Shown here: piece after piece, positions 4,654-56,237 of the stretch
Layout of the letters: every line of letters starts with the position of its first letter
Numbering within the stretch: the stretch's first letter is position 1
Origin: Pocillopora verrucosa
Taxonomy: Eukaryota; Cnidaria; Anthozoa; Scleractinia; Pocilloporidae
Direction of reading: 5' to 3'
Length of the DNA stretch: 64,000 nucleotides
Assembly (NCBI RefSeq): GCF_036669915.1
Contig: NC_089318.1
Coordinates: forward strand, 6,335,349 to 6,399,348
Translations under genes and position numbers: made by a program
The notes under the pieces: model-generated
What the model was told of the DNA's origin: nothing
The model's database searches: none
Seen by the model: only the letters and a program-made list of their open reading frames with translations

Positions 4654-6991
4654 TTACAGCCTGGTTTCTGTGTTCGAATCGGTTACGTCAGAGCACAAAA
4701 CCGATATCAGTTCAGTTTCCATGTCCAGAAACTGAGACTTCATTTCATCAAGCAAGTCATCTTCATAAATAATATTTTTGATACAACAAAGAAATTTGAT
4801 TTTAACTTCCTCCTCTGTGATGAATCTAAGAGGATAATCAGTGATTCCAAGTGTTGGCGAAACTGGCGACATATCAATGTTATTCTTAGCTTCTTGGTTG
4901 GATGATTCAATAAAGCGTTTCTCTTTACTGCTCAGTTCTACATCAGGACTTCGGCTCTTTATAGAGCATTTTTTTGAGAGATGTTTACACAGCGACTTCA
5001 TTGTTGAACGGATGTGAGCAGGAAGCTCTTTTCCTCTATCTCTTAAGGTATTGCACATAAAATTCCCAACTTCTACATCGAAAAAATCATCCCCTTTACC
5101 CCCCCTGACCTCTTCGTATGCATCAACCAAAATAGCTACAAATATATTGATCAGGAAAAACATTACGACAACCAAAAATAAAAACAAGTAGAGCGAGCCC
5201 ATCAATGAGTTATTCAAGTAAATGCTGACGTAATCTACTTGCTTGCCGACAGACATTTGTAGCACTACTCGCAAAGAGTTGAAAAAAGACGAAAAGATTT
5301 CTAAATGAGCTCCAAAACCGAGAAAACCAAAATGACTGAAGGCAATAACAGCAATGACGAAAAGCAACGAAAACGAAAATATTGACCTGGCTGACCTTTT
5401 AAGAGTTCCTTGCATTTGACAGATATGGGAATTAAAACGGATTAGTCTCAGAAGCTTTAAAGTTACGATAAAAATTGCTATTGACAGCCAAGTAGTTCCG
5501 TGATTTAACCAACGTACGATGTAATCAGAGCCATAGGTCTCATAGGGGTTTGACTTAATTTTCCTAACAAACAAACTGGTGTATTTCCCTTTAAGAAATG
5601 ACATTGTAACTACCACGATACAATCCACAAGGAGAATGACCTCCACCCAGTTCCAAATTTGACGAAAGTACCTACTCTGGCGAAAAAACTTGACTACAGC
5701 AGCAATTAAATGTATCACAATGACTATAAGAAAAAACAACTGGCACACTTCATAAAACCTTTGCCAATGTGTCTCTGGTGAGGGAAATACAGCAAGTGTT
5801 CTGATGTCCATTTTTGTACTAGGCTTTCCACTAGGCGATGCTTCGTAGACCAATCTACCACTACAAAAGAGAGACGTAGCTGGATCATATAAAGTGAACT
5901 CTATGAATACAGCCACAGTTTGTCCATCAATCCAGTTATTCTCGCTAAGTCCCTTTATCACTTTGGATGCCGATTGACCGTTGTATCCAAGGTCTGCTAT
6001 ATACCCACCGCCTCCATAACCGTCATGTGAAAGAGTTTGTGTCATCGATCCCGATTGGTATCTCCACGGTTTAGGACAGAGGTCATCAATAGAGGAAAAG
6101 AGACTGTAATTTTGCAGCTTAATCCACTTTGGGAGATGATATGGAGTCACATCCTCAGTATCGGGTGAGTACTTTTGAAAACAACCAGGAAAAACGTCTG
6201 TGATGTGGGTGTTGTAAACATCATTTGGGCAGCTTATCCCTATCAAGTGAAGGAAATTTAAAGTCACTTCTAACAAATAATCGTAACTAAAGATAACGAG
6301 CCAGTGGTGTGACATATTTGTTCTTATATCAAAACCTACTGAATGCACAGCCTACCCACATAAGTTGCCATTGTAACGAAAGGTTTTGCTTTTGTGACAA
6401 GAATTTCATGTTTGGAAAAAGAAACTGGACGATTATCAACTTTAAAGCAGTGGTATAGAATTTCATATACTCAATCTGGCTAAAACATTCCCATTTTAAA
6501 AATATTTTCTGCTATACCCCATTCACACCAATAAAACACATTAAGTTAAACCGTGTTTAACTGAGTGAAATTCAGATTAAACAAAGAACTGAAAAAATGG
6601 AATTTTCGATAGGATTCACGTAATCAAGTAAAGCAATCGCTAACTCGTATTTTCAGTGCGCTATATTTGAAGCCGCCAGTTTAAACAGCTTCTTTGAAGA
6701 AAAAAATTTTAAGCCGTATTTAACAAAACAGCTTTGAAGCATCTTTAAGCTTTGATGTAATGGGATCACTGATACGGATACTATGCTATTTACAGGTATA
6801 TTTCTTTTTTCCCTCTTACTTGGTTTCGATCTTAACTGTCTCAGCCGTGGCATTCCAATCAGGAAATTCTTCTTGTTGCTGATAAATCCCTCTTTGTATT
6901 CAAATGACCTGCCATTGTACCAAGTTACATCGTACAAGCCAGGAATTAGCGCCTCGTCTACCCAATTCCACAATGAAGACGTACTATCCAC
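4654..6991 (-). CDS. Polycystin channel-domain exons (last two exons)
   Basis: The penultimate exon (6991-6820) encodes the start of the extracellular polycystin (TOP) domain, with the family motif GMPRLRQLR. A strong GTAAGA donor after codon position 1 joins to an acceptor at 6240, giving KPRISCPND. The last exon (6239-4654, 528 codons plus stop) carries the remaining TOP region with Gly-rich GYGGGGY, five TM helices, a voltage-sensor-like S4 segment LKLLRLIRFNSHI, the pore region SLRVVLQMSVG and an S6 with FLINIFVAILVDAYEEVRGG. The tail ends after about 130 acidic/basic residues. No long coiled coil like that of vertebrate PKD1 was recognised. The whole second half of the channel sits in one exon. 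Confidence 0.9.
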
Positions 6992-9900
6992 CTAATAAAA
7001 CAAAGTATTTCAATCGTCTGTCGACAAGATACATTGATTTATTATAACTCTCAGTTAGTACGTATGCTATGATCGATCATTGAAGGGGGCCGTTTTTTAC
7101 TGTAGCTAAATTCAAAAGTCTGTTTGAGCCTAGCGTTAAAGTAAATAACACCTTAACTTCGTTTCTCAGTCCATACTGTAATTTATGGAACTTGGCGCTT
7201 GGGCCATAAATCTGAGCGGAAAAAAATCGGTCCGCAACTCATAGTTAAACTCGGTTAGTAGGAGGTATATATTGCCCTTTTTTCTTGTCACTCAGATGAG
7301 TTTTTGTGTCCCAAGCTCGGGGTTTCAAACAGACCTTTTTAAAACGTAAAAGTTTTAACACTTCTACTGGTTTCAATGGAGTATAAAATTTTATTTTTGC
7401 AATTCACCCTCATCATTGATTTTATAACAACCACTATCGATACTGTAAAAACAGATCTATTCGAAAGCTTAAATTACAATATATGGAAATGCTTTTGACC
7501 TCATCTAATCCACTGAAGATGTCCATCGTGGATTTGGTAAACTGGAATCGAGTCGGATGAATATCTCCATAACATATGACCATAAGCAGAAAACTGAATA
7601 TTGAAAATGATAGTACTTCTTTGATTGCTTCCATCATGCTCCATTTTTGGCTATCGGCTTCTTTTTCTCCGGCGAGTTCCTTATCCCTTTTCCTTTTAGT
7701 TCGAAAATTCTCCCCCTTTTTACTTTGAAACAAGGAAGCTCCAATAACAGGATCCTGTTCTAGTGGTTTCCTTACGAGAAGAGACAAAAATGCAGCCAAA
7801 GTAAACACCTTAATTGGTTGTGTGAGTAAAACATCCTGGAAAAGGGACACTAAAATAGATGTGAGCCACTTATTTGAAGTGTCTGCTCCCCACATCAAGC
7901 TATAGAACACTGAAAAGGTTGCACCGGTCAAGGAAATGATCAAGCTGAAGGTCCAAGCAACGTAGATAAAGAAAGGTGGGAGACAACCGGGGGGCTTAGG
8001 CTTTTTATCGACTTCTCTGGGATCGTACACCTCATCGGAAGATTTTCGTTTTGTGTTTCTGTAAATAAGTATCACAAGGAAGTTAGCTGGAATCGCTATA
8101 AAGCTGCTCTGTATTCCAATCTTGAGCTGTGTCCAGCTCATGACAAGGGGGCCAAATCTAAAGGAGTCTGTGGGTATTCGACCAAATTGGTAGAACATAG
8201 CATTGGTCACCATTGCTGTAAAAAGGAAAGCAAGGCAACAAGTAAGACGCTGGCAACGAGTAAAAGGGCTGTGAGGAGGCCTCGCAAACACAGATATCCA
8301 GATGTGTCCGTCTCCCAGACTTCGGGCCGTGCGGGAAAAGAAAAGATGCTTAAACTCAGCAAGCTCATCTTCTTTTGCAGCCTCGACAGATAACTCAATG
8401 GAGCCACTCCTTTCGTCCAGGGCAAGCCATTGGTTCACAAAAAAGTACCACATTTGCTCAGTTTGCTGATCTGTTAGAACAACTTGTTGAAGAAACCAGG
8501 CCGGATTGGACCCGATGTTGTCATGCCAGATGCAGATATCTGTCACTTTTCCCAAGGAAAAAGGTAAGGTTAGGGTAAAATTGTTTACACTTCCCCTAGC
8601 AAAATATTTTCTCTTAGCTAAGGGATCAGTCAACGTAATTGGTCCACTGCTTCCTTCGTCTCCATTGATGATTATTCCTACATGCGCTGAAGTACCAAAT
8701 CCTTTCCATACTCCGGTCTGGATGCTTAAAAAGTAAGTGTAACCCTCCGTTTGGGAATTAGTTATATAAACGTTGGCGACAACCTAGAAATAGTAAAAAG
8801 GACAAAAAATTTAAGCACTCAAACACATTGCATTGTAATTATATGGTAATTATTATTCTCCCGACAAGTAATTCTGGAAAATGCATGCAGCGCTGAACCA
8901 GAGTGAACTTCGCTATCACTAATTTATTGATAAAAAAACGACCTAAATAATCAATTAAAAAAATGAACAATTGATGACTATGGAACCGAAATAACTTTCA
9001 ATGATTTACTACACTTGTAGGCAGAAAAATATAGTTCCTTATCTTTCACTGAAGGCCCTTTTCACACTTACCAGTATGAGAGGAGAGTTCGGTCCCGTCA
9101 TTCTGGGACCAATTAGCGTATTGATTAATGAATGACTCGAAGTTTGGAATCCAGAAGGTCAACTGGCCACTTAAGTGTTACTGACCTTTAAAGAGTCCTT
9201 TTTATCAGCTCGACGAGCAGCCACGAGTCCTAAAAGGTATACACCAAATATAAATAACACAGTGGAAAGCACGACGAAATTTCCGGAGTCAGCGATCCTC
9301 TTGAATTCTGTCCAAACCTTTTCAAAGTCGATAGGGTTTGGAGCCACAAAAATGTTCCCACCAAACGCTGAAAGATGTTTACAGAGGCAGTGCAGCTTTC
9401 CATCCGTTATTTTCCAGCCAACCTGAAGAAATGAAAACTATCAGTATTGCATCTTTATGTGTTTTTATGGGCCTTAAAGCAAAATTCCGGGAGTCATCGT
9501 CATAGCGTGCGACTTGTTTAATTTGTTGTAATCATAAATGAATTTTCGTAATTTTCGACAAAGTTGCAGATGGAGGGATGGGCTGACTGCCGCATAAAAT
9601 TCAATGTTGATAACAAATTAAAATGGAGAAAAGAGGCATTTTTTGTGGCTGTCGATCTTACACAGGTGCTCTGATAAGACTAAAGAGCTGGGTTTCTCTG
9701 TTGAAGGACCGTTTCGGAAAAACAATAGAGCGAAACAACACGAAATTGCTGATCGTAGCAGTATGTGCGTGTCACATATGAACTTCGTAACGGGCCTTGC
9801 CCACCATTAAGTCTCTTTTGCTCAGTGGTAGAGCATCGGAATCCGAAGGTCTGAGGTTCGATTCCTCATGGGGACTCAGAATTTTTTCTTTTTCCCACGC

Positions 9901-12900
9901 TCGTGAAAAGACGAAAACAATTTTCTCTATAACACGAATGTGTGTTTTGATTATACTTATGAAATATACAGTACTCGCACCTCGCACCCCTCAGTTGTCC
10001 ATGTCTGAATCTTTTCAGACCAATATAAACAGCTCCTGATCTTTACTGACATGGTGTAGTTCACATCTGTCAGTGGATTATACTGGGGTGTTATTATCTC
10101 TGGGGCTGGAGGAGGAGTGGTTGGGGGATCCTTGACACCGATACAAGATCGCTTTTGCCTCCCATTTTTATCTTTACACGAAGTTGAAATATGACGGGTT
10201 TGACGCTGAGCAATTCCCGTCATGTTTAGTAGACGTATACCAATAAAATGAACACCAGTGCCACCAGTAATATTGCTTGATAGCAAAAGAACGTTAGGGT
10301 TACGGGTGCAATCAATATAACCAGTTCTGTCTTGATGACGAACGCATGATGAAAAATCGGGAATTCTCGTTTTTAACTTGTAGTTTTCATGTGATGGCTT
10401 AACACCACGACTCACAAAGACATCAACAGACGAATTGTTTTCTGGGCTTATTTCCACAAATGCAGCTTGAAAGTCATTTTCAATTTCTATTTTGTGGTAG
10501 AGCAAAGGACTGGATCCATTATAGGTTCGCTTTAAAAAAAAATGTCGCTGGCTAGAATTTCCAGTTTCATCATTTCTATGAATTCTCTCTGGAATAAACA
10601 GTTCAATGGGCTGACTAAGGTCAGATATTGCTAAGAGGGATCCGTCTTGCCGCTTTAAATTCACACTCAGAACTGAAGATTTGATGAAGTTCGAGCGGTT
10701 GTTCCACACGTAAGGGTTTATTTGCAGCGTTGTCATCTAAAATAAAAGTAATGATAACAGAACAGTATGACGTTGTATGAAAAAGATAAGAACAACAACA
10801 GCGTGCAAAAACCAAAATTTCACGTTCTATAATCCTTTTGGCAAACAGCCGTGAAATTCTTTCTGCTTAAGACAAATTCCAACCAAAACAACAGAATTAA
10901 AAAAAAAAAAAGAAGCAAACTAAGACCATAATAGGCTCCGTAACTTCAAAGTGTTCGATCTCCTGATGGCTTGACAAGGAAATGTTTTAAGTCCATCATA
11001 AAACACAAAGCGTATAGTTGTTGAAGATCGTTAATCCTAACGTGATGCGAATATCGCCGATCGAAAGAGCTAGTTTGCACGGCCTGAAGTATCGTGATAT
11101 AGATAAACAACAACTTGTGAAGAAAATGGGTAATATAGAAAGAAAAAGTTCTCTCGACAGCTTACTTGAGTGCCAACGGATCTCAAATTGGTTCCTTTTC
11201 TTCCAAACAGCACTTCCATTGACGGAAAAGTAACGGCGCCTTCCCCATCATTTCCATAAAAGGTTTCATTTCCAATTTTTGATGGTGCCTTACTCTGAAG
11301 TGTCATAGTGATAATATCTGTTTGGAGCGTTGTTTTCCTCTGACCTTGAGCCTGTATAGAGAGCAATGTAGTACCAAGCATGTCCGCCGTTGATAAAATC
11401 TTCTCCGTGACTTGTTTGGCCTGTATGAACGTGGAATAAAGAACATTTGTATCTGATCAGAATCTAGCATCGAATGCTCTATAGCTACTTCCAAGCAGCA
11501 GTGAAATTGTTTCAAAAACGACCACCCGCTACATGTAATTTTACGTTTGACACTTGCCCTGCAAGATCCGGTACGGGAAGGAATTTCCAGCAAAAATGGT
11601 TCACTCTGATACTTGGGAAAGCCTGAAAACTCATTCAAATGTATTGACAAAGGATTTACCTTATAAAATTCTCTTGTAGCTTGTTCAGCTTCTCTACGCC
11701 TTCTGTTTAACGTTTGTGTTAGGTTTAGTTTGCCTCCATCTTCCTGATGAAGAACTTCATGGTAATTTTTTTTAGCGAAAGATGTAGAAGCTGTCAGAGT
11801 GTTTGATATTCCTTCTAAAATATCTGCACTAGCATCTTCAACAACATCTCTGCCTTGATAAGCACGGAGGAAGTCAGTCGCTTTGGAAAGTAACGAGGCA
11901 GCATCTTCCTAAGTTAGAGAAGTAAAGGATATTCATGGCTTTAAAAACAACTCTGCATTTACGGCCACATATTGTGACTTAGACCTGCTTAAATCCAAAC
12001 CTTTATTTCAATACAACGATTAGAAAAAATTTTCGTACAAGGAACGTTTTGCGGAATTACAACTCTGTCATAATAACGATGAAGATTAAATGCCGGATAT
12101 GCAGCAAAAAAAAGCCTCATCAGAACCATGAACAGTAAGTGTTCGGTTGATTTTTCTTAGCAATGGACGTGAGAATTGAGCAAAGACCGTCCTCCGTTTC
12201 AAAAAAAATCAATATACTTGCCAGAGCGTCCATAGGGATTTGGACTCTGTTTTGTGTTGCCATGACAACAATCGTAGATAGTCCTGTGACCTGGCTAACA
12301 TCCGCGATTTTGATATCAGCCATAGCCTTCAATATAGAGTCCTTCGTCTACATTGGAAAGAACATACACCTGTAGTTTTATTATTGTTGATTATAAACAT
12401 AACTCCTTAGAGGAGAAGTATGGAAACAGGCTCATGGACAAAACTTCGACAAAAAAGGAACATACTCTGTCTTCAACGTGTGAACTAAGAATAGCTATCG
12501 CCAAAGTAGCAGCTTCGCTGAATCTTGTCTCCTCAAGGAGGCTCCCAAGGTCGTTCATCAATGTTTCAACATTCATTGAAGAGTCATTCTGAGGCAATGG
12601 CTTCACCTAAGATTCAGAAAAGACCGTGAGATTTAAAATTTCCTTTGCTATGTTCACAATTTTTCTAGTCAATTGATATCTATGTAAATTCTTTTAAATC
12701 GACTGACTTGATAATGTAAAGTAGTCGCCGTAAATATTTTCTACAGCTAACGTTTCGAGCCGGTTAGCCCTTCGTCAGCCATGGAAATTCTTTATGGAGG
12801 CCAATATACATTATCGATTCAGTTGATATCATCGAATTATCTTGTACTGCCCGCCACCGACGCTGCACCACAGTTTCTTTGGAAACGTACCCACTTTGTT

Positions 12901-15900
12901 CATTTGTTATCAATCTTGCTGTTTTGGATGCGCTGGCTACGTTGATCTTAGAATGGAAAACTAGGCTTTTTCTTGTAATGAGGTGAGATTTAATAGCTTA
13001 GGTTTCCTTATTGGTTAAGCAGACGTGACACACAGACACTCACAAACATCCCTAAGACCCTTAGAAGCCAATGTGAAAATCATACAACAAGCGAATTTTC
13101 CAGTAGTAGGAGTAGGCCGTTTTATTATAATTTAACTTGCCTTTACGGTGACAATATCGCTGTAGCTTGATTCTCTTACATCAGTTATGTCAACTCTAAG
13201 GGTGACATTGTAATCTTTAGCCTGATACCCTTGTGGGAGCTTAAGTGATATATATGGTGCATTTTGAGGCCGTGCAGCTGTCACAATGCTCCTTGAAGTA
13301 TTGTAACTGCAAAAAAGGTGATGACGTCATCAAAGGAGCTTATTAATCAAAAGAGAGAGAAGCAGAGATAATTAGGAACGTTTCAGGAAAGGTCGGCCAT
13401 AGCAAGTCATTCACAACTTTAAATATCTGAGAGATAAGGTCAAACATCGAACAAAGAGAAATGCTGAATTCAATTTTAACAGGCGTCAAATGGAAAATGC
13501 ACTGCACCAAAATACATAGTTTTTTAGTGTTTTCAGCAGGCAAGAAGAAAAGCTGAGTATTTTCCTCTCGCAAAACTTACCTGAATTTGAAAATCAAATT
13601 ATCGTTTCCAATACGCCAGCCAGAACAGTTCACAAAAAATAAAGTTTTAATTACAAAGCCTTCTTTCGGCTGGACATTACACTTCTCTTTAGGAACTTCT
13701 AATGGCGCAACGGTTTGAAACACCATACTGTCATCTCTAAAATATCCACCAGCCATTTTTATGGAGGCAGCTATCTTGTATGCGGTATTCATTTTGAGTG
13801 AATACTCGTTATCTTTCATCCTGCCGGTGAGAACAAGGGTTGGGTTGTCTAGGTCCGTGAGTATTCGTTCTGCTAAGTCTGCGATTTGCACCCACGAACT
13901 CTTGGGATCCGCTTTCTCATATAAAGACCAGTCATAGCCAGTAACTTTTTCACAGAGGTTCCCTCTGCATCGGGATTCAAATATCATTCGCTTGGTCGGA
14001 ATAACCTCGGGTCCACAATTGTAGATGCAGCTGTAAAATTGAAATAAATGTTACTGTCACGACGTTTATAGAAAATCGCTACTGATGAGCCCCCTTGATC
14101 TTGATCCGAGTGAAAGTCGACGATAACTACTCTAGGTGCTTGGTATTACTTAATATATTCAGCAATGCTCTGGTACAATTCCTGTTCAAGGAAGGAGACA
14201 GCTGCGTGCGAGATAGCTACGGGTTGCAGATGCGCAGGTTTGAAATAGCAAAACGCTACTGTTACCAAACGATATAGAGTGAGACAAAATGAATCATACT
14301 AAATCAGTGGTCTAGCTAACTCGAGTTCCTTTCGCACATTGTTAAAGCCTTTGAAAGTCTAGTCAGGGGGTCATAAATTTGGACCCTGTATAGAGAATCA
14401 GGAATGTTTTTTAAGATTGCATGTGCATGTCTGACTGAAAATACAAAAACTTAAGCATAAAAACCTTGCAGACTTTAAAGGAAACTAAGTCTCCCTAATA
14501 ATATTAACACGTTTTCGTAAAGGGATATAATGGCCCTATACACTATCAGTTATTCCTTTGACTGAAAACTGGGCAAGAAGACACATATTTTACAAACGAG
14601 GAATAATTACCTTATTGAAAATGATGCATGTGGTTTTTTTATCACGGTCAATTCATGAACATCCCTAGAACTACTAGCTCCATCTGAGACATCAAGTTCA
14701 AAAACATAAGTTTGTCCACTTTCCATTTTGTCGACTTGAACAACAATAGCAGTCTTGTGACCCATAAGTCTTCCCGGGCCGTATCCATAGCAACCTCCGG
14801 AAGCATTTGCGTTCCCTTTTGGAGAATCGACAAGTGGAAGGGTAACGCGTTTTGGCAATTTTTCGTACCTTCTTCTGCAAAACCAGGTAAATATCAATGA
14901 ATCTGCTAGATCAGAATTTCGAACATATGGAAGGGAGCCAACAAGGGATATATTCCCTCCTCCAATTTCCGCGGAAGATACTCCTGAAATTCTGGCAACG
15001 AAATCTCTTCGCGTGACTTGTATGAAACCATAATCATAGCCGATTATCCTGAGATCTGCCTTGGCTCGTAAAATGTAGCTAACGTGATAGAATCGGTCGA
15101 TAAAAACTCTTCGTTGCGTAGACCAGACAGGTTTACTTTGTTTCATGGCGTTGCGCATAAAGCTGTAAAATGTTCTGTCCGTTAATTGTGCTTTGGTGAT
15201 GAGCCAGTATGATAGCGATTGTGTCTCAGAACTACATCGCGAATGCTGCACGTCTGCTTGAAAGTTAATCACGTCGGTTGTATGGATCACCTTTACCTGT
15301 CCCAGTGCCTTGCTCAAGTTTACGTCAACATTTGCAGGGAGACATTTGCAGTTTGCTGAGAAAATAATTGGGTTAAATCAGGATAAAAATCTCCTGAAAT
15401 GGTATAGCTTCATCAAATAATGCGTATTACTCATACTGTCCTTCAGATAGTCTTGCTAATTCACGCTGGCTTCAGATTTGACGTCAAACAATTTCTGCTT
15501 ACATTTATGACATTATTTAAGGGAAAAACCCGGGAACAGGGAAAGTGTACCCTGAATGGGGACGTCCCTTGTTTTGGTTAAATATAAGTAATAAGAGTAT
15601 CCTAAAACAGTGGATAGCGTTAAAGGCGCGCGCTCATTGGAGAATATCACTTGAGGTATATCCTCGGATATTCTCTAATTTTAGCTAGTAAAAATATTTG
15701 ATGGATCTGAAACATTGTTATTTACTTCCGAGAAATCCACCCGGGATTTGCACCCGAGAATATTGTAATCGCTGCAGGAATTTGCAAGACTAAAAAGAGG
15801 CGAAATTTTTTTTTTGTGCTGTAGCATCCCAAATTTTTATTATAGACTGAAATAACAATTTCTCGAACGGAGGTGTCCTTTGAATGAAGGAGTTTCTTGA

Positions 15901-18900: not shown

Positions 18901-21900
18901 TGTCAAATTCAGGAAACCATGAGCACAGGAAACATTTCATGAATATTGTTGTGTAAACAAGAAGTGACCAGTCAGCGTTAAGCCACAATTTAGAAAAAAC
19001 TCTGGTATTGCAATCACAGTTTGTCTTTGACTTACATTACATCTTTGTCAGTGCCGTCGAGGGTCCAGTTAGCAACAAGGTCTGTGACATCTAAATGATA
19101 TGAACGAATGTTTGAAAGGCTCAACATTTGACCAGTAAGATTAATTATATGACAAAGGAACTAGCTTATCTTTCTACAACAAGACTTCTTAAAAATCAAT
19201 AGGCGTAAACAGTAGTCTAAATAGGAGTGTGAAATTCATAACAGACGAAGATCGGGATACGGTATTCATGAAAATAGTGATGTTATTTGCATTGCACGAA
19301 TAGCGTTGTAAACAGCTGATTAAGGCAAATAATCTCCTCAGCCTGCGTTTTGATAATCACCTGACTCTCAAAAACATCTCAAAACAGAATTTCCGTTTTT
19401 AAAACGCCGATACTTTCAAAAAAACCTTTGGATAAAAGACAATTATTTTAGTAAAATCTTGCAATCCAATAAATTACTTTTCGCATCGATTACGAAAACA
19501 CCAAGAAATGTTCTGGTAAGATCTTCAGGAACGTCTTTCATTTATATGCCAGTGAACATCAATAAAGGTTGAGAATGGCCTAACGAATTTTGTTGATCAT
19601 TGCACTTCAAACGATCTTCCACTACAAAAGAAAAAAATCAGGAACTCTTGAAGTAAGGGCTGCGGACACTGCTTTGCTCTTCTCGATAATTCAAATCTCT
19701 TCTGTTCTTCGCACGAGTTGTAACTGCAAGGCTTCGTGACAATTTGTATATTTTAGATAGATCTTTTATCTTGTCGAACACGATGTCCAGTTATAATTAG
19801 AATATAAATGATATGCAGTTTCTTTTCTTTGAAGGTTTCAGAATTAATTGCCTAAAAGTCTTAAGTTCTTATCCGTACAGTCATCCCAACTTGCTGTTCT
19901 CACTAATAAGACTTGAAATTTTACACCACGGCAGAATGACATACTATACCCGTATTAGCACTTTTTTTGTGTTTGTTTTTTCATTTTCACTTGGGCTTTC
20001 AACACTTTTCACGTTCAGTTGCAAATCGCACTCAAGTGCTTAACACGCACGCGCGACGTTCTGACTGATGAGCACATGTTATGGTGTAACGGCGGAAGAA
20101 GAGAGGTCTTTGCGGTGCAAAATAAGTACAGATACTGTGTATAATACGCTCAAAACGCATACAAAATATGCACACAGCGTTCGCGGTAAACTCATAGTAA
20201 AAGAAGTCGAGAGTTTTCGGAACGGGTCGGTCTGCGAACCTTATAAGAGATCTCTTTACAAGCGAACATTTATGAGTGAACCTTTCATCGAGAAACATGC
20301 TATATCAACTGAGCTACCTAATGCTAATTGAGAGAAGCATAAAAGCAAATCTCATCGTGTATGTAGACGTGATCGTGAACCAAGCAGAATACCAATACGA
20401 AGTTTGAAAAGTTTAGGGAACAAGCTTAAGAGCAGAAGGGTTAGAAAATTTGTCTATGCACGTATTCTTTCATGTATACCCATGTCATCTACATTGTACT
20501 ATTATGTAAATGCTTAAAATCTATCAAATACAACGACTTTTAAGTTTAACTGTCGTGAAAGAATTCGTCAAAGTATAAGAAAGATAAAGTATCGGATCAG
20601 TCGATATTTAACATCTTTTTCTTGTACAAATTGATTTGTCCTATTGCAACTATAGATTTGGTCCTCCAATGTTTGTTGACCTAACAAAAGAATAGCAGCT
20701 CCATATGGTCAAGGTAACGAGTTAGTTTTTGGGCAGAATGCAGGACAACAATGTGTTGTAATGAGTTTGTGCTCTTTGATCTACAATAGCACACTTGGGA
20801 TCAGCTCTACAATTGATCTTATGCAAATAATGAATTTTGGAAATCAGTTTTTTCAAGTTTGTCATGATTAGTCAGACAGGCGTTGTTAAGGCAGTCAGAA
20901 TTACCAACAGCATTAAATGTGTTTGATACTGATTATCAACTGGAATACAGTGAAAGCTACTCTGGTACTGCTCACCAAGAAACTGCGATAGAGGGATATC
21001 AGTACTGTACCTCTTTACGAGGAGCCTTTGAGTCGTCCATATCTGAAAATTAGCTCTGGTTGTGACTTTTTGTTTTCTTTTAGTGATAAGAAAATAAGCA
21101 ATTGGTTTTCTTGCTTGGGTTGAGTGTCATCACCCCTGCACTTGGGGCTGTTTATAATTAAAAGCTATCCCACCCTGAAATCTTTTGTTAACCAAGAAAA
21201 GGAAAACATAAGGAGACAGCCTATGTGGTAAATGACTCACCCCGCTAAAACCCCTTAACCCGCAAAACAATATCTAATCAAGTTAAAACTAAAAAAAAAA
21301 AAAAAAAAATGGAAATAACGTCTAGTGATAAGTATTGAAATAATAGCCAATAATATATGGCACTACCTCCCCCCACCCCAGAAAAGGGTCTGTACACTAC
21401 ATAACAAATGCTGTTTTCAGCTCTCTGTATACATATGTGAGAAACCTGCATCTCCGACATACCAAGACAGAAAACAGTTAAAGGATAAACCAATAATTGC
21501 ATAAAGAAACTTTGACAAATGCAGGCACAAAGAAAAAAACAAAGTTTGTTTCCAACAGAAAGCCCGAGTGAACGCAAATTTGTGTCGAGGTCAAGAGGAA
21601 AATTGAAAGCAGTTGGGACCAATTTCCTTTGCTTCCAGCTAAAAAATTACGCAATAACTTCAAGATATGATAAAAAATGATAGATGAAAACAAAATTAGG
21701 AAGCAGCTAGAAATCTTCACAAATTAAAGCGTTTCATGGGACACCAATGCGCATATTATTGAACGATTATGTCAATGACAGAAATAACATTTTAACACCT
21801 TTTCAGACCGAGATAAAGGCGCGTTTCAGTTCTCCGAAAGAAACATTACGCTAACTGTCGGTTTCAATTAGAAAAAAACCGACTGTTTTTCTTTCGTAAT

Positions 21901-24900
21901 TTCCTTACATGCAAGCGCAAATCAATAAGTTTCTTTATGTTGGCTCTTTGACAAAAATTATCTTTAAATACGAGCCAATGTCGATTGTTATTTGCATCCA
22001 TTCATTTGCATTTCGGGTGGATTAATAACCGAAAATATAGACGAAAATAGGCATTTCACGCTGTTATCTATCCTCCGGCTTAGGTATCCAGCTGTGTATA
22101 GCAACTTTATCATGAACAATATCTTAAATTGGCTTCTAAATATATATAACCTACACAATTTTGCTCATAGGGTTAAACAAATAACCAATTTTGCACTTGC
22201 GTGACCCCAAAAAGCCATCGTGTGTTATTAAAGGTTAAAATGAATTTCACCTACGTGTATATCTTTTCGGAAATTTTTTCCCATAAGATACGGAGGGGAA
22301 TTAAAATTTTCTTGAGCTAAAGCGAATCATGTTCACGGTTGCTTATGACAACGTTGGAAAACTGGGGACATATGAAAGTTGGATTTGCGACCCAAGCCAT
22401 TACTATCACAGCTCTAGAATTAAAGATGTTTTGAAGAGACGGTCAAGCCATAATTACTTTTTCCTCGCTTGGGCTTCGATTAAAATACGAGGGAAGGGTG
22501 AAAGCAGCATTTGTGTAGGGATATTTTTGGGGCTTTTTCAGGGACAGGTTATATGCTGTTTTTACACCATAGCAACGCTATTATCATGGCAATTCTTGTC
22601 TTTTGATACAAAGAGAAAATTATCAGGAATTGATTTTATATTCATATATCTACAGTCTATTTCCAAACGATTTGAACAATATTCTTGCAAAAACCTTCAA
22701 ATGCCTGATTGTCAGTTGTAATCTCTTTCGCTCTCATATCAATTTCTAAAAATCCACTTAACATGGAAAGTATATATCCCTTTTAAGGAGAGGACACTGA
22801 AAGCTACTTAACAACGTAATTTAGAGCACTATTCAATACCTTTTCAAGTAAGGAAAAAGATGAACATCACATGTCTGAATTAGAGCTTTCTCATTTCTCC
22901 TTAGATCAGTTACAATTACATTACCTGGACACTTCGTTTTCCCCGAGATAGCGGGATAAGTTAATGTCAAAGAAAAATAAGTGCAGACCCAGAGGTGGTT
23001 CATGGTGGCAAGACAAGTAAACTGCGCTGCAAAAATTTTTATTTTTGAATTTATAACGTGCATCATTACCGAATGACAGCAATGGGCACGCTTTGATTGG
23101 CTAACCACTGACATCTCATCTACCTAATAACAAAAGAGCTGGAATTCTTTATCTTTTTGTATGTTTGCCTGTCCATTTCTTTTTCGTTTTGGCTCACCGA
23201 ATTGAACGATGAATTATGGATGTACTCTTTCTCATATGAAGCTACCCCGTTGAAAACGGAAAACAACATCGCATTTTGGCTTTGAAATTCTTCCTACTTC
23301 CTCCAAGGTAATTTACAAAGTTGCCGCCCTGAAGCAACACGTACGAGTCAAAAAACAGCGGTGTGTTAGCCAAGAATATTTGTAAGTTTTCCAAATTACC
23401 TATCTCGCAATGTTAGTTGTTACCCGTGTCACTCATTTGTGTTTGTGTGTAAACGTTCTCTGGTTTGGTACTTACTGAGGTGATAATACTTTTTTTTCAT
23501 CTTAAAGCTGTTATTATTGAGTTTTTATCATAAATGATGTTGTATTCTCTGTAATAGCGGGTTGTGAAGCAGGATGAGTAATTTTTCTTGTTATAGTTTA
23601 ATAACTTCATCCGTGAATGATCAAACTAATGGAACACAAACACTACCTATAATCAAAGTATGCATAAATCGACAAAGCAATTTCCGGTCTGAGAAAACAT
23701 TTCTTGTTAGTTAGGGAAACTTTCGAAAGCAAAATCTTAGGCAGTTTTTAAACTCAATTCTTGAATCTGTGTAACTAAACAGAGTCACGAAGAACTACTA
23801 ATTATTATTCAGAACAATCAATTCAGCTTAAAAACATTAAAACTGTCTCCATAGCTATTCACACGCCTGTTCGATGTTAAAGCTAATTACGTTTTCAGAC
23901 TCTGCCACTAAACATTAAAAAAAACATTTTAACAGAACTTAACCTAAAGATGACAAAAAAGATAACGCTTCCTTTTAAAAAAACATCAAAAAGTGATGGC
24001 CAACACCATCATCGAAAAGCCATAAGGCCTCGAGAAGACGGGGTGGCTTTGAGAACACTACTTGATGCTCCAGCTGATCTTGTTGCTGTATTTAACGCAG
24101 CAGTTGTTGACGTTGTGTTATCTGGTGCGGTTGCTGTTGATGTTGCTGAGACACGTGAAACAGCCGATTGCGTTGTTGAATCTGATACAGCAATCGAAAT
24201 ACTTGGTGTAGCAGCTGATGGTTTTGTTGAACTTGATGCAGCAAATGCTTGTGTTGTTTTTTCTGGCACAACAGTGGTTGGTGTTCTTGAATCTGATGGC
24301 AGAGGAGCTGGTGTCGTTCGTGCTCTTGAATCTGATGAAACAGATGTTAGTAATACTGTTGATGATACACCGACTGATGGTGTCGTTGAATCAACTGGAA
24401 AAGATGTTGGCGTTGATATTTTAGGCAAATCAAGCGGAGTTGTCATGGAATCCGATGTAGGAGATGTTGATGTTGTTATTGTTGTTGTTGTTTCTGAAAC
24501 GACAGACGATGATATCGATGTGACTGAGTCCGACAGAAGAGGTGTTATTGATGTCGCATTTATCATAACAGTTGGTGAGGCTGTTGAATCCACTTGAGCA
24601 GACATTGCAGTTGTTTCTGGCACAACCAGTGATGTTGTTGTTGAACTTGATGTAGTAGATATTAATGTCGTTGTCTCTGGCACAACAGTTGATTTTGCTT
24701 TTGACTCCGGAAGAAAAGTTACTGTCATTGATGTTTCTGGCACCACAGCTGATGGAGTTGTTGAATCTAATGGAACTGGTTTTGATATTGTTGAATTTGG
24801 AACAACAGCCGAGGATGTTACTGAACCTGACGGAACAGATGTTTGTTTTGATGAGGCAAACGTTGGTGTTGCTGTGGCTAGCAGATTAGTTGATGCTGTT

Positions 24901-27900
24901 GAATCTTCTGGAACAGATATTGGTGTTGCCATTTTTGGCACAATAACTGATGATGTCATTGAACGGGATGGGGCAGATGGTAGCATTGTTTTTTGTAGCA
25001 CAACAGGTGATGATGTCATTGAATCTGATGGAACAGCCACTAAAGTTGTTGTTTTTGACAGAAAAGATGATGTTGGTGATGAATCCAATAAAACAGATGT
25101 TTGTGTGGTTATTTCTGAAAAAACTGATAATTGTGCCGATGAATCAACTAGAGCAGATATTGGTGTTGTTGTTTCTGAAGTAACAGGTGACTTTGTTGAT
25201 GACTCAACTGGAAAAGATGATCCTGTCGTTGTTTCTGTCACCACAGCTGACGGTGTTGTTATTTTTAAAACAGCAAGAGATGTTGTTTTTGAATCAACTG
25301 GAACGGATATTGGTGTGGTTTTTTGTGTAACTAAAGGTGATGGAGTAGTTGAATTTGATGGAATATGTGTCGACGTTTTTGTTTCTGACACCGCAGCTGA
25401 TGGCGTTGTTGAGTCTTTGACAGACTTTGGTGTTATTGTACCTGTCATCATGGCGGATGATGTTGTTGAAACAACTGGGATTGGTGATGCTGTTGTTTCT
25501 GGCACTGCAGGTGATGGTGAAGTTGAATTTGATGGAACAGATGTTTGTGTTTTGATTTTTGAAACGTTCATCAGTATTGTTGAATTTACAGAAAGGGATG
25601 TTAGAGTTGTTGTTGAAGGAGTTGTCGAATCTGGTTGTGTAAATGATGGGGTCATTGTTCCTGAAGCCACAGCTAATGGTGATGTTGAATTGGATGTTTG
25701 TCTTGTTGTTTGTTGCTTGACAGAAGGATTATTTGTTGACGTTGTTGAACCAGGCACAATAGCCGAAATTGTTGTTGAATTAATTGGTAGAGGTATTGGT
25801 GTTGTTGTTCCTGGCAAAACAGGTGGTGATGTAGTTGCGTCATCTGAACCAGATGTTGACGTTGTTATGTTAGGCATAACAGCTGATGGTGTTGTTGAGG
25901 CTGCTGGAACAGAGGTCAGTGTTGCAACTTTTGGTACAACAGTTGAAGGTGTTGTTGAATTTACTTGAACAGAAGTTGAGATTGATGTTTCCGGCACGGC
26001 AGGTGATTGTGTTTTAGCCACAGCTAATGGTGATGTTGAATTGGATGTTTGTCTTGTTGTTTGTTGCTTGACAGAAGGATTATTTGTTGATGTTGTTGAA
26101 CCAGGCACAATAGCCGAAATTGTTGTTGAATTGATTGGTAGAGGTATTGGTGTTGTTGTTCCTGGCAAAACAGGTGGTGATGTAGTTGCGTCATCTGAAC
26201 CAGATGTTGACGTTGTTATGTTAGGCATAACAGCTGATGGTGTTGTTGAGGCTGCTGGAACAGAGGTCAGTGTTGCAACTTTTGGTACAACAGTTGAAGG
26301 TGTTGTTGAATTTACTTGAACAGAAGTTGAGATTGATGTATCCGGAGCGGCAGGTGATTGTGTTTTGGCCACAGCTAATGGTGATGTTGAATTGGATGTT
26401 TGTCTTGTTGTTTGTTGCTCGACAGAAGGATTATTTGTTGACGTTGTTGAACCAGGCACAATAGCCGAAATTGTTGTTGAATTAATTGGTAGAGGTATTG
26501 GTGTTGTTGTTCCTGGCAAAACAGGTGGTGATGTAGTTGCGTCATCTGGACCAGAAGTTGACGTTGTTATGTTAGGCATAACAGCTGATGGTGTTGTTGA
26601 GGCTGCTGGAACAGAGGTCAGTGTTGCAACTTTTGGTACAACAGTTGAAGGTGTTGTTGAATTTACTTGAACAGAAGTTGAGATTGATGTATCCGGCACG
26701 GCAGGTGATTGTGTTTTTGAATCAGAAATAATGTAGGTTGTTGTTGCTGCTGAAGTTGTCGGGTCAAGTGATGGTGTTGCTGAATCTACTGGGGCAGATG
26801 TTTGTGATGTGCTTTCTTGCACAACAGGTGATGGTGTTGTCGAATCAACAGGAGAAGATGTTGGTTTTTTTATTTCTGGCACAACAGTTGATGTTGTTAA
26901 ACCCACTGTAGCAGATGTGGATATTGTTCTTTCTAGCACAACAGCTGATGATGTTGTTGAATTAACTGAAGCAGGTGTTGTTGATCTTGTTTCTGACGCA
27001 GCAGGTAATGGTGTCGTTGAATCTAATGGAACGCTTGTCGGCACAGCTGATGGTGTGGTACCCGAAGGCACAGATGTTGGTGTTGTCGTCTTTGGCACAA
27101 CATCAGATAATATTGTTGAAGCTGATGAACCTTGTCTTGGTGTGGCTGTTCTTGATAGATAAGGTGATACTGTCTCTGTATTTATTTAAAAAAATGTAGA
27201 TGGTTGTTTTATTTAAGAGAGCGGTTGATTATGTTAGTGTTTTCGGTAGGAGAGGTGAGGGTGAAGCATTTTTCAAAATAGTATATTGCGTTATTTCAAC
27301 CTGAAAGGACATTTTACGTTGGTTTATTTGTCGTTAACGGTGTTCCATTTGTTGTGGTTTTTGTTTAGCGATTATTTTGTTGTCTGTGATGTACTACCTC
27401 GGTCAGAAATATTGAATAAGCCGGATTGATACGGAGATGGAATATTCCTAAGCAAGTGTTCAAAATTAAAGTGAAATAGATGTATCTTTCTTAGTTTAGC
27501 AAGAAAACACAACAGCGTTTCTGAATCAGTTCATTAGAAAAACGACAGGCCTGAGAAGCCACCTTGTCCCTTTTCGGCTTTAATCTTAGGTTTAAGTAAA
27601 TGTTGTTCAACTCTATGAGATGTCTACTCCTTTCCTAGGGAAGTTACCAAAAATATATACTTTGCAAATATCAGTGCTGGAAGTTAATGTTGATCCTCTG
27701 ATATTAAGAGTCACTTCTTTCACACATAACAAAAATACGAAGGGCCGAAATTCATGCCCTTTTCAATATGATCTGCCGAAAATGTCCAATATAACAATTT
27801 GCATTGATTTACTTATTTATTTTTTATATCTATCATTCTCAAATCAAGATCGTCATAGTGCATTATTCGAGTTTCGTGTTGTTTGCAATCAAAACAACCT

Positions 27901-28776
27901 AGCAGTCGCCAATATCAATATCATCATTCTTGAGTTATGACTTGGGTTTTTACTCAGAGCTATCAGTTAGGACAACCACGCCTTGATATTTTACAATATT
28001 TCTGAAATAAAAGGTTACAAATCTACTTTCATGGAATCGATCGCTTAACTCGACAAAAGCAAAGTCTTTATATATCTAAAGAATGATCTGGGCGATCCCT
28101 ACAGTTCCACAGTGAGAATGATTATAATTGTTATCCAGGACAAGGAAAGCGGAAGAAACGGTAAAATGAAGGGTTGAACAGTTTTTAAAAACATTGAACT
28201 ACCTCATGATTAATTTGGATTTCATAATCTTCAAAATGTTAGCTATAGAATAATTAACCCACCGAAGTAAACATCTTAAGAACAAAGCCAAAAAAAGGCT
28301 ACGAATTCGTAGGTTGAATCGTGATTTTAATATTCTATATGGAAAAAAATAATTTGGTTTCCAAATACTCAGACTCTGTGGAAATGCTATCTAGTTATAC
28401 TAAGTTACCTTCGGTGACTAGGTATTCTAAAGGTCTTAAGTTGGAGTAATGTGTAAGGTGTAAGTTTGAAACATAAAAAATACCAACTCAACGTCAAATA
28501 TACCCACGGAATATACCACGTGGAAAATCGTGCATTTTCACTAAAAATAAAGAATGAAATAAAACTTTTCATCATTCTCGGACGAGCTCCTTTTTCCAAC
28601 AAGCACATTCTATTTTGTTTTTTTAATTATTGATAGGTTATGATGTTACGTAATGCAAAACGAAGTTCTTCTTTTCACGGCGTTATCAATTACTTTCACT
28701 TACCTATCTGAGCCCAGGATTGCGTTGATAAAAATGCTATCTGTAAAGCCACTACAAACAGAAGATCGAAACGCAT
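4654..28776 (-). CDS. Polycystin-1-like protein with mucin, LamG, REJ, GPS, PLAT and channel modules
   Basis: My model joins 19 exons: 28776-28704, 27175-24062, 19091-19037, 18739-18455, 18052-17772, 16816-16758, 16475-16316, 15355-14611, 14030-13581, 13306-13147 (or 13141), 12606-12466, 12347-12222, 11908-11660, 11420-11166, 10736-9981, 9422-9186, 8783-7500, 6991-6820 and 6239-4654. Every junction keeps phase, giving 10188 nt (3395 residues plus stop). Domain order: signal peptide (1-22), Ser/Thr/Pro-rich mucin-like region (to about 1060), LamG/ConA-like domain (about 1070-1265), REJ module (about 1340-1795), GAIN with GPS (to about 2320), TM1, PLAT (about 2383-2500), five further TM helices, then the polycystin cation-channel domain to the C-terminus. 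The family consists of autocleaved, very large surface receptors with a TRPP-like channel body, used in cilia, sperm and mechanosensory membranes. The LRR, WSC and PKD repeats of vertebrate PKD1 were not seen. The family is certain. The single-gene link between the mucin exons and the LamG exon is well supported by phase but unproven. Confidence 0.8.
7500..8783 (-). CDS. PLAT domain and central TM exon of the polycystin-like gene
   Basis: One 1284-nt exon, phase 0 at both ends. The first part is a PLAT/LH2 beta-sandwich: ANVYITNSQTEGYTY, HVGIIINGDEGSSGP, ICIWHDNIG and WFLQQVVL are the usual landmarks. It is followed by RPPHSPFTRCQRLTCCLAF leading into TM2, then TM3-TM5 and the first helix of the channel bundle. 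A charged Lys/Glu-rich cytosolic loop (around KRKRDKELAGEKEAD) separates TM5 and TM6. The donor at 7500 (GAG|GTCAAA) is weak, but the join to GTG GAT in the next exon restores conserved family sequence. Confidence 0.88.
9186..10736 (-). CDS. GAIN/GPS and first TM exons of the polycystin-like gene
   Basis: Exon 10736-9981 (252 codons) holds the beta-rich part of the GAIN domain and, near its end, CLYWSEKIQTWTTEGCE. Exon 9422-9186 (79 codons) continues with VGWKITDGKLHCLCKHLSAF. Together these give the four-cysteine GPS with its Trp residues and an intact HL|S autoproteolysis tripeptide, then NIFVAPNPIDF and TM1 (VVLSTVLFIFGVYLLGL). The receptor is therefore predicted to self-cleave between Leu and Ser just outside the membrane. 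Two GT donors compete at 9981; the upstream one restores the consensus GPS and is preferred. A SINE lies in the intron. Confidence 0.88.
9797..9935 (+). repeat. tRNA-derived SINE inside an intron
   Basis: It contains TTGCTCAGTGGTAGAGCATC (A-box region), a CGAATC-like anticodon region and GAGGTTCGATTCCTC (B-box), followed by a T-rich tail. It sits antisense within the GPS intron of the polycystin-like gene. It lacks the pairing and 3' end of a true tRNA gene. Confidence 0.7.
11166..13306 (-). CDS. Five small linker/GAIN exons, at least one GC-AG intron
   Basis: Exons 13306-13147, 12606-12466, 12347-12222, 11908-11660 and 11420-11166 run between the REJ and GPS exons. All but the first start in phase 0, and all leave in phase 0. 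They encode Ser/Thr and helix-rich sequence typical of the helical GAIN-A region (for example ETLMNDLGSLLEETRFSEAA). The donor at 12222 can only be GC (CTG|GCAAGT), because the nearby GT would shift the frame into stops. At the end of the first exon, either a GT donor (13147) or a GC donor (13141, two residues longer) works. No catalytic motifs are expected here. Confidence 0.75.
12690..12905. repeat. Head-to-head pair of dispersed repeat 'A' arms
   Basis: Within an intron of the polycystin-like gene, a minus-oriented copy (about 12705-12783, containing CTTGATAATGTAAAGTAGTC and CCCTTCGTCAG) abuts a plus-oriented copy (12786-12900, containing ACATTATCGATTCAGTTGAT and GCTGCACCACAGTTTCTTT). The result is a near-palindromic foldback without a loop. 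It has no coding potential. Confidence 0.65.
13581..15355 (-). CDS. REJ-module exons of the polycystin-like gene
   Basis: Exon 15355-14611 (745 nt) and exon 14030-13581 (450 nt) are joined in phase 2. The first ends in a fibronectin-like strand pattern (TYVFELDVSDGASS). The second starts with SCIYNCGPEVIPTKRMIFES followed by a Cys-rich stretch and YDWSLYE, the signature of the receptor-for-egg-jelly module. These Ig/FNIII-like modules occur in PKD1, PKDREJ and the sea-urchin sperm receptors upstream of the GPS. Several N-linked glycosylation sequons are visible. Confidence 0.85.
16316..16816 (-). CDS. Two short extracellular exons between LamG and REJ
   Basis: Exon 16816-16758 (59 nt) begins in phase 1 and ends in phase 0. 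Exon 16475-16316 (160 nt) runs phase 0 to 1 and encodes a helix/strand segment beginning SVDKIFNTTAVLMADINIS. Their only strong support is that both have good splice sites and that the phases fit the neighbours exactly. Residue similarity to a named domain was not recognised; a SEA- or stalk-like region is possible. The 59-nt exon is the least certain of the model. Confidence 0.6.
17772..19091 (-). CDS. LamG / concanavalin-like lectin domain exons
   Basis: Exons 19091-19037, 18739-18455 and 18052-17772 give one compact domain: VTDLVANWTLDGTDKD, then DGVTALYLDGKGSYADTPS, FSAFTIMCWVKV, IYADWSRPYQFSFWVNG, WMHVVVTWDQQ, EMFFNGSKRG, YYQIGSKADT and FHGLVRKMKVYKRLLN. This strand order is that of LamG-type (pentraxin/ConA-like) jelly-rolls and probably binds glycan or matrix. 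All junctions conserve phase. In this protein it precedes the REJ module, where vertebrate PKD1 has PKD repeats. Confidence 0.82.
19092..24061 (-). other. 5-kb intron of the polycystin-like gene
   Basis: Between the mucin exon and the first LamG exon. It contains AT-rich DNA, a poly-A run near 21290-21310 and short unsupported ORFs. Apart from a 102-nt candidate exon (22925-23026), no coding sequence was recognised. Confidence 0.6.
22925..23026 (-). CDS. Candidate 34-residue cassette exon
   Basis: The segment is bounded by a T-rich tract ending TTGCAG and by CCAG|GTAATG. It is 102 nt long and open in the phase-1 frame that the surrounding intron needs (QFTCLATMNHLWVCTYFS and on to KCP). If included, the next codon becomes GAT (Asp); if skipped, it is AAT (Asn). 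The frame survives either way. It would add three cysteines just before the LamG domain. It is also open in a second frame, so the call rests on splice sites and phase only. Confidence 0.45.
24062..27175 (-). CDS. Mucin-like giant exon of the polycystin-like gene
   Basis: A 3114-nt exon encodes about 1037 residues composed mostly of Thr, Ser, Pro, Val and Ala in a loose 13-17-residue rhythm (for example SVPSGTTPSAVPTSVPLDST), with many N-x-S/T sequons. This is a textbook mucin-type O-glycosylated stalk. The acceptor TACAG at 27176 completes the GAG codon begun by the signal-peptide exon. The preferred donor is TCAA|GTAGTG at 24062, phase 1; without splicing the frame stops at 24009, which would give a secreted mucin instead. 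It contains three 351-bp tandem repeats. The long plus-strand frames opposite it reflect composition only. Confidence 0.75.
25666..26718 (-). repeat. Three tandem 351-bp (117-residue) coding repeats
   Basis: The anchor GCCACAGCTAATGGTGATG recurs at 25666, 26017 and 26368 (GCC at each), exactly 351 bp apart. The copies differ by only a few substitutions. Each encodes 117 residues including TSISTSVQVNSTTPSTVVPK. The period is a multiple of three, so copy-number change keeps the frame. The repeats occupy about residues 178-528 of the protein. Confidence 0.92.
28704..28776 (-). CDS. First coding exon: signal peptide
   Basis: ATG at 28776 opens MRFDLLFVVALQIAFLSTQS, followed by WAQI, a classical secretory signal with probable cleavage near Gln-Ser-Trp-Ala. 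The donor is G|GTAAGT after codon position 1, which matches the AG start of the mucin exon at 27175. This is the only upstream exon needed to give the protein an N-terminus. A TATA-like box lies about 150 nt upstream. Confidence 0.8.
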
Positions 28777-39879: not shown

Positions 39880-40893
39880 TCAATTGGCGGTGAGCTCTGT
39901 GTTGCGAGGGTTTCGACTCGAAAACGAAGTTAAATCCACTTGCAAATTTTGCCGTCTTGAGTTTCTTTTCCTTAACGAAAACATCTTTCCATATTCTCTT
40001 CTGAAACTCCTGTTTAGGAAACCGTATATAAAAGGATTAATGGCTCCTGACAAATTTCCCAGAATTAGGTAAAAAACATAGACCTGTCTCGGAAGAGACA
40101 CTTCACCCCGGAACGTGTCTACAAAATCTATGACCGCAATCGGGGTCCAACAGGCCAAAAATCCTATCACGGTGATGAACAGAATCTTTGTAACTCTGAT
40201 ATCTGCATGAGTTATGTTGTCCACAGCCATAGCACACGATCGCAAATTTTGAACTGTTCTCCGGTGAATACGCATTTGTCTGAAGACAAGAGCATAGCAT
40301 ATGGTTAAAGTGAAAGTAGGCAAGCCGACGTAGAAATACACGATGAAGTTTGGAAGGGAAATCTCACCTGTCTGAAAGCAAAACAACTTTCCGGGATGAA
40401 AGACATAACGTCGACCCGAAAGTAAATAAGGTAATGGTTCCAAGCAAGCTAAGCCGACTCCAAATGCTATCATAGTTGAGGTTTTCCACTTTGTAAAAAT
40501 TTGCCGATAATGTTTCGTTAGGACCATTCGGTAAAATCGATTGATCGCGGTCAGGGTTAAGGTTAGCAAAGAGGCGCAAGCTAAAATTATGACGAAAAAT
40601 CCTTGACTTTGGCAAACGCTATCATTAAATGGCCAGTAACCAACGATGGCAACAGCTATAGAATACGGAGCACACAGTAAAGGTAAAAGAATATCAGAGA
40701 TCGCCAGAGACACAATGAAGTAGTTAGGAATCGTTCGCAGTCTTGAGTTTCTGTACACTGCCAGAAGAACACAGGAGTTTCCAACGACTGCCACCGAAAT
40801 TGTTAACAGATAGAAAAACGTTTCAAATATCACAACCTTCTGATCTCGGTTTAAAAGTTCTTTTGCCAAGTTTTCGATTCCTTTCAGCCGCAT
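39880..40893 (-). CDS. Rhodopsin-class (class A) GPCR, intronless, melatonin-receptor-like
   Basis: A 337-residue seven-TM receptor in one exon. Landmarks: N39 in TM1 (VVGNSCVLL), D67 in TM2 (SLAISDILL), Cys94 and Cys172 for the extracellular disulfide, NRF (118-120) in place of DRY at the end of TM3, CWTP (248-251) in TM6, and NPFIY (286-290) in TM7, then a basic C-tail (SLRKRNSRRQ). The loss of the acidic DRY residue and the TM3 context INRFYRM resemble the melatonin-receptor-like class A receptors expanded in cnidarians; the ligand is unknown. ATG 40893 starts the only open frame. The 5' end is duplicated upstream. Confidence 0.85.
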   Translation of the reverse strand: MRLKGIENLAKELLNRDQKVVIFETFFYLLTISVAVVGNSCVLLAVYRNSRLRTIPNYFIVSLAISDILLPLLCAPYSIAVAIVGYWPFNDSVCQSQGFFVIILACASLLTLTLTAINRFYRMVLTKHYRQIFTKWKTSTMIAFGVGLACLEPLPYLLSGRRYVFHPGKLFCFQTGEISLPNFIVYFYVGLPTFTLTICYALVFRQMRIHRRTVQNLRSCAMAVDNITHADIRVTKILFITVIGFLACWTPIAVIDFVDTFRGEVSLPRQVYVFYLILGNLSGAINPFIYGFLNRSFRREYGKMFSLRKRNSRRQNLQVDLTSFSSRNPRNTELTAN

Positions 40894-56114: not shown

Positions 56115-56237
56115 TTTTACGAGAAGATACTCGTGTGAACTTGATTCTCCCGCGTAATATATCAGCGGCTTTAGCAGTACTCGTATGCTCCGTGGTGCAA
56201 TAGTACTGAGAATTCTCTTAGGAGTGGTTTGAGGAAG
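56115..56237. promoter_or_regulatory. Bidirectional promoter region between RIOX1 and the DHHC gene
   Basis: Only 123 bp separate the two ATGs (RIOX1 minus, palmitoyltransferase plus). Both 5' UTRs and the core promoter(s) must lie here or overlap the coding ends. No TATA box is obvious on either strand. Confidence 0.6.

Follow-up and report, generated by a model that had tools for sequence, protein, structure and literature searches.

Does a single gene at this locus of Pocillopora verrucosa encode a polycystin carried on a mucin stalk, or do two genes lie side by side on the same strand? The window analysed here is a stretch of 64,000 nucleotides (C7:6335349-6399348, where C7 is NC_089318.1) from a 353-Mb assembly of 52 contigs. 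The original prediction placed a mucin stalk on the polycystin in one 3395-residue gene. We find that the claimed gene consists of two signal-bearing minus-strand pieces, a Ser/Thr/Pro-rich exon upstream and an exon series running from LamG to channel downstream. With a probability of roughly 80%, these are two adjacent minus-strand genes, one for a mucin-like secreted protein (1079 residues, 28776-24009) and the other for a PKD1-family receptor (2387 residues, 23003-4654). In other words, the stalk most likely stems from a fusion in the gene model, and separating the two genes disposes of a probably chimeric model ahead of any mucus-sensor story.

The gene structures given below are sequence-based models, and their donor scores rest on generic splice-site matrices. 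Stop-to-stop frames, Pfam and a DP gene finder were followed by frame-by-frame choice of junctions and comparison with paralogs. Junctions were fixed in this way because a small coding model, tried alone for ab initio gene finding and rejected, missed or invented small exons. The features of the two genes are as follows.

Neighbour gene exon 1, 28704..28776, minus strand: signal peptide MRFDLLFVVALQIAFLSTQSWAQI, phase 1, donor GTAAGT with score 4.6
Neighbour gene exon 2, 24009..27175, minus strand: mucin-like Ser/Thr/Pro-rich exon, ending at TGA
Polycystin exon 1, 22925..23003, minus strand: candidate signal peptide MNHLWVCTYFSLTLTYPAISGKTKCP, phase 1 end, donor GTAATG
Exon 2, 19036..19090, minus strand: start of the LamG region (VTDLVANWTLDGTDKDV)
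Exons 3-4, 17772..18739 (18739-18455, 18052-17772), minus strand: LamG / ConA-like lectin head, intron at about profile position 72
Exons 5-7, 16316..17317 (17317-17208, 16816-16758, 16482-16316), minus strand: linker, based on the DP model and a faint paralog resemblance
Exons 8-10, 13180..15355 (15355-14611, 14030-13581, 13306-13180), minus strand: REJ module, from Pfam
Exons 11-15, 9981..12606 (12606-12466, 12347-12222, 11908-11660, 11420-11166, 10736-9981), minus strand: pre-GPS region and first part of GPS
Exon 16, 9186..9422, minus strand: remainder of GPS with HL|S, then TM1
Exon 17, 7500..8783, minus strand: PLAT and TM2-TM6, weak end donor (-1.3)
Exon 18, 6820..6991, minus strand: start of the Polycystin (TOP) domain
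Exon 19, 4654..6239, minus strand: remainder of the Polycystin domain, TM7-TM11, tail and stop, with filter SVGKQ at 5253-5239

One gene or two

The signal peptide and long mucin-like domain of the original prediction are borne out, in that exons 28776-28704 and 27175-24009 join in phase into 1079 residues. This product contains 21.9% Thr and 20.3% Ser (42% Ser+Thr) and 11.4% Pro, Cys is absent, and its frame holds 0 stops against the approximately 53 per frame naively expected from base composition (chance about 3e-24). Inside the mucin exon a 351-bp unit occurs three times; 17 codons differ, and the 6/17 that are synonymous are uninformative. A test for duplicated mucins returned the window copy only, which is weak evidence because simple repeats were skipped.

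If this exon were spliced onto the polycystin, the splice would have to fall before the in-frame TGA at 24009. The best donor in its last 600 bases scores -0.8 and is in phase 0, and none scores above 0. The phase-1 donors in the same interval (24370, -1.16; 24202, -1.21; 24061, -1.23; 24154, -1.7) stand near or below the best 20% of the strand's 3565 GTs. Between the two genes lie polyA-like signals (ATTAAA at 23602, AATAAA at 23043), which could arise by chance in such AT-rich DNA.

The second line of evidence is the candidate signal-peptide exon at 23003-22925 (-), which the original prediction missed. A LamG/REJ signal peptide downstream of 24 kb had been named beforehand as an observation that would overturn a fusion, and by sequence one is present here. 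Its ATG at 23003 stands in full Kozak context GCCACCATGA, with TATAAA 52 bases before it, and the exon end is in phase 1, which is what the LamG exon requires; this agreement is partly built in, since the signal-exon scan took phase-1 donors only. The donor scores 2.8, and 1.04% of the strand's GTs score higher. The hydrophobic core is modest, the best 9-mer reaching 1.51 compared with 2.79-3.38 in the best signal candidates of the mucin and six paralogs. The exon therefore failed a first scan with a core cut of 2.0, in which the sole window match was the mucin signal exon (2.82). With the core cut lowered to 1.3 and the phase-1 donor required to score 2.5 or more, it alone qualifies in 24008-19091, and 300 dinucleotide shuffles averaged 0.10 candidates per run, none with a Kozak match of 5/6 or better; because these cut-offs were chosen with the exon already in view, the figures flatter it.

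Comparison with paralogs in the surrounding gene cluster points the same way, to different degrees. The 3' end of the exon and the start of its intron agree with the signal exon of the paralog at C7:6237182 at 18/19 bases, with a match score of 34 against a maximum of 32 in 500 shuffles; in blastn against the cluster the same match has E 0.12, equal to that of an unrelated 16-base match. In the same splice-site test, 8/500 shuffles reach the score obtained for paralog 6332537 and 203/500 that for 6309347. Each of these three candidate paralog signal exons closes with a phase-1 donor, which in two cases follows ...CP as it does in the window exon. The phase-1 scan gave signal-exon candidates in six of seven paralogs, none in 6276k and several in some.

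The strongest rival is one fused gene, in which signal peptide 1 and the whole or part of the mucin exon precede LamG, REJ, GPS, PLAT and channel, so that the polycystin would carry an O-glycosylated stalk. A fused model through donor 24061 is open, with 20 exons and 3423 residues, and phase 1 is common to the mucin signal exon and the LamG exon. A better phase-1 donor stands midway along the mucin exon, at 25441; its score of 0.58 falls between the best 5% and 10%, and a splice from it could bring in roughly half of the mucin. Among PKD1-family proteins, sea urchin SpREJ9 has also been described with a stretch rich in Ser close to its N-terminus (PMC1934368, in the part available). Furthermore, the polycystin model itself relies on a GC donor and on two donors scoring -0.1 and -1.3, so the weakness of the donors is no disproof of a fusion. 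Against it, the donors near the mucin exon end are weak while the Ser/Thr-rich composition continues almost to the stop, and a second signal exon intervenes. Likewise, no long mucin-like frame was seen among frames of at least 45 residues upstream of paralogs 6318k and 6296k (one 50-residue frame has 40% Ser+Thr), and an F5/8C match lies upstream in seven paralogs instead. We therefore disfavour a fusion of mucin and polycystin and consider it improbable, although the donor at 25441, together with the failure of the 23003 exon in the first scan, has lowered our confidence in two genes.

Alternative first exons, with either 28776 or 23003 spliced to 19090 in phase 1 and the mucin exon confined to a separate short isoform, seem to us decidedly improbable. 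The DP score of 719.3 for 28776-28704 joined to 19090 exceeds the 718.8 for 23003, but the difference is negligible and due to the first exon alone, and the acceptor of the mucin exon is in phase with signal exon 1. A start at ATG 19127, read straight into exon 2 without a signal peptide, tops the unrestricted DP paths (722.8), but it saves one intron cost and would leave a large extracellular region without the signal sequence for which six of seven paralogs gave a candidate exon, and we give it very little credence.

The LamG polycystin and its pore

Under the two-gene reading, the splicing model yields a polycystin frame at 23003-4654 (-) that runs through 19 exons uninterrupted by stops and encodes 2387 residues. 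Its domain order is signal peptide, LamG, REJ, GPS, PLAT, Polycystin domain and PKD channel, and the six domains from LamG to PKD channel all pass Pfam cut-offs in the spliced protein. They are encoded between 19090 and 4654 (-) by phase-compatible exons, so this part of the original prediction, including the GPS cleavage site beneath a LamG head, is upheld.

The head, Laminin_G_3, occupies residues 64-223 (1.2e-16) and is followed by the REJ module at residues 380-788 (1.5e-28). GPS spans residues 1278-1315 (9.6e-6, 26.5 bits against a cut-off of 22.5) and precedes TM1. The cleavage triad of GPS is HL[S/T], and the sequence CLCKHLSAFGG contains the putative triad HL|S. After TM1 come PLAT (residues 1391-1495, 3.9e-16), Polycystin_dom or TOP (residues 1800-2008, 5.7e-35) and PKD_channel (residues 2016-2237, 2.7e-31). 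A crude hydropathy test agrees with the 11 TM segments claimed originally, giving 12 Kyte-Doolittle peaks above 1.6 of which two overlap. Among solved structures, the last exon is related to PKD2L1, PKD2, PKD1L3 and polycystin-1 (best E 2.2e-41). REJ, a GPS with HL[S/T], TM1, PLAT, TOP, the channel fold and 11 hydrophobic segments are common to this protein and the PKD1 family (polycystin-1, PKDREJ, PKD1L1-3, SpREJ1-10), from which its LamG head sets it apart. An N-terminus of the vertebrate polycystin-1 type is absent: Pfam at E up to 1 gave no LRR, WSC, C-type lectin or PKD repeats.

All introns of the model are GT-AG except one GC-AG after 12222, where exon 12347-12222 carries the GC donor. 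This donor, the donors at 12466 (-0.1) and 7500 (-1.3), and exons 5-7 are the weak places of the model. The pre-GPS region of exons 11-15 is GAIN-like by position only. A SEA domain was considered for residues 234-345 and rejected, as neither this piece nor the corresponding piece of gene 6296k has a Pfam match and the resemblance is by eye only. An Rfam tRNA match (46 bits) lies at 9811-9876 (+), on the opposite strand within a polycystin intron.

Two cnidarian proteins are among the closest comparisons. Nematostella polycystin 1 shares REJ, PLAT, TOP and 11 TM segments with the window protein, but the Nematostella protein, from tentacle hair cells, is 3457 residues long and has WSC and a PKD domain (PMC8846589, in the part available). 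Similarly, the REJ domain-containing skeletal matrix protein of Acropora digitifera shares REJ, GPS, PLAT and the conserved cleavage site, but carries WSC and PKD repeats, and LamG is not named on it in the accessible text (PMC4890752).

The polycystin filter, SVGKQ, lies at residues 2189-2193 (window 5253-5239, minus strand), with Lys directly after Gly. In alignment it occupies the position of LGD in PKD2. The seven paralogs have LGG, IGG, LGD, IGA or IGI there, and the one with IGI (6279k) has a Lys two residues further on. As far as the available text describes it, PKD1L3 likewise has a Lys rather than Asp at the filter of the 1:3 PKD1L3/PKD2L1 channel (filter KDDD), but its Lys2069 is three residues past Gly2066, whereas the window Lys is immediately past Gly (PMC8357825). 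Human PKD1L3 also differs in having no REJ domain, according to the part of PMC1934368 available. Because the filter reads SVGKQ where PKD2 has LGD, we suggest that the polycystin probably assembles with PKD2-type subunits into a heterotetramer, in which it plays the regulatory part.

A richly expanded family and its heads

Eight channel genes, including that of the window, lie together in a 190-kb cluster at C7:6.15-6.34 Mb. Tblastn with an F5/8C query from gene 6318k finds a match upstream of the other 7/8, confirmed by Pfam in 6318k and 6251k, and no match in the window gene (E 1e-4), where LamG stands instead. The paralog models are rough and started at supplied ATGs; in 6318k and 6296k they capture only part of F5/8C. 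HL[S/T] is present in the GPS of 8/8 cluster genes. In a 13-row tree, which left out minus-strand loci L004, L005 and L008 (of L001-L008) and had no row from C7:17 Mb, the window channel domain groups with 6/7 other cluster genes (support 98/95) and C7:6149k falls outside. The polycystin body is of the ordinary PKD1-family type but its head is uncommon, and the family has expanded richly. With F5/8C or LamG heads on like bodies in one cluster, the role of the head is testable by comparison.

Across the genome there are at least 115 PKD_channel matches (150/171 candidates scored), of which some are fragments of a single gene, and at least 150 Laminin_G_3 matches (150/315 candidates scored). Besides the window, at least 12 places have a LamG match followed on the same strand, within 30 kb, by a PKD match, as in the window gene; these pairs are defined by distance and not by gene models. 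C7:16.98-17.30 Mb holds nine of them, and C10, C1 and C8 hold a single one each. Spacing is 10.7-13.2 kb in 10/12 pairs, 18.3 kb on C1 and 20.6 kb on C8. Pairing covered 150 LamG matches; the 12 pairs came from 46 of these and the other 104 added none. In addition, a same-strand PKD match lies upstream of eight LamG places, all of them in the C7:17 Mb array, where the next gene follows, and one LamG place is on the opposite strand.

The exact architecture was originally said not to be known from described polycystins. No description of LamG on a polycystin was found in the literature examined, an incomplete set that is weak evidence of absence; within this genome, however, the recurrence of LamG upstream of PKD channels tempers the claim, as does the Ser-rich precedent of SpREJ9 for a stalk. 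In the portions available, PMC6208414 mentions polycystin diversification in corals, and neither two symbiosis papers (PMC9102920, PMC6019070) nor PMC10236652 was found to bear on architecture.

Outside the window, seven places at C4:16.2 Mb (43-49% identity) come closest to the window LamG, whose 38 matches include none from C7:17 Mb. An intron splits the window domain near profile position 72, and the two C4:16.2 Mb places inspected likewise match in two pieces, whereas the nine C7:17 Mb domains each lie in one open frame (profile 3/4-150/151). This absence from the matches, together with the split as opposed to single-frame domain, suggests separate origins for the two LamG-polycystin groups.

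We tentatively propose, as a possibility we rate well below even odds, that the polycystins of this animal form a large modular recognition repertoire, built on a chassis of signal peptide, REJ, GPS, PLAT and channel that is copied in tandem and swaps its binding heads through phase-1 exon shuffling. On this view an F5/8C chassis would have acquired the window LamG, a head of the split C4 type, in an event separate from the origin of the LamG heads at C7:17 Mb. If this were true, such polycystins could sense self/non-self, symbiont or prey glycans and respond through a Ca2+ channel.

Several side observations concern these families. LamG and PKD_channel matches form a second tandem array at C7:16.98-17.31 Mb, where several pairs are about 12 kb apart and some PKD matches have inner stops. 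A PKD_channel match at C5:23771813 lies in a 2256-residue open frame and a LamG match at C8:8218866 in one of 4823 residues, each possibly an intron-poor giant gene.

Hypothetical signalling and the remaining genes

From these features we infer how the polycystin might work, including its transcription start, cleavage, ligand, partner, cell type and gating. The protein would be cut at HL|S in GPS and its ectodomain would remain attached; in PKD1-family relatives both halves stay together after GPS cleavage (PMC1934368, in the part available). The LamG head, a putative lectin-fold sensor, may bind a glycan or matrix ligand, and binding or pull could be relayed by REJ and the cleaved GPS as far as the TOP domain and pore, where the polycystin would serve as regulatory subunit beside PKD2-type subunits. 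Polycystin 1 marks hair cells in a cnidarian (PMC8846589) and a coral REJ protein is present in the skeletal proteome (PMC4890752), as reported in the sections available. For this reason mechanosensory and matrix roles are both possible. Flow, ligand or gamete sensing, the function suggested originally, is a speculative possibility.

Other genes share the window. Two pairs of frames on the minus strand, 33178-35595 and 44320-45716, match CaKB (calcium-activated potassium channel beta subunit), with the N-terminal and C-terminal parts in separate frames. A rhodopsin-type GPCR occupies a single 340-residue frame at 39880-40902 (-) (7tm_1, 1.5e-37). Further along are a DHHC palmitoyltransferase frame at 56175-57140 (+) and an EF-hand frame at 58428-59009 (-).
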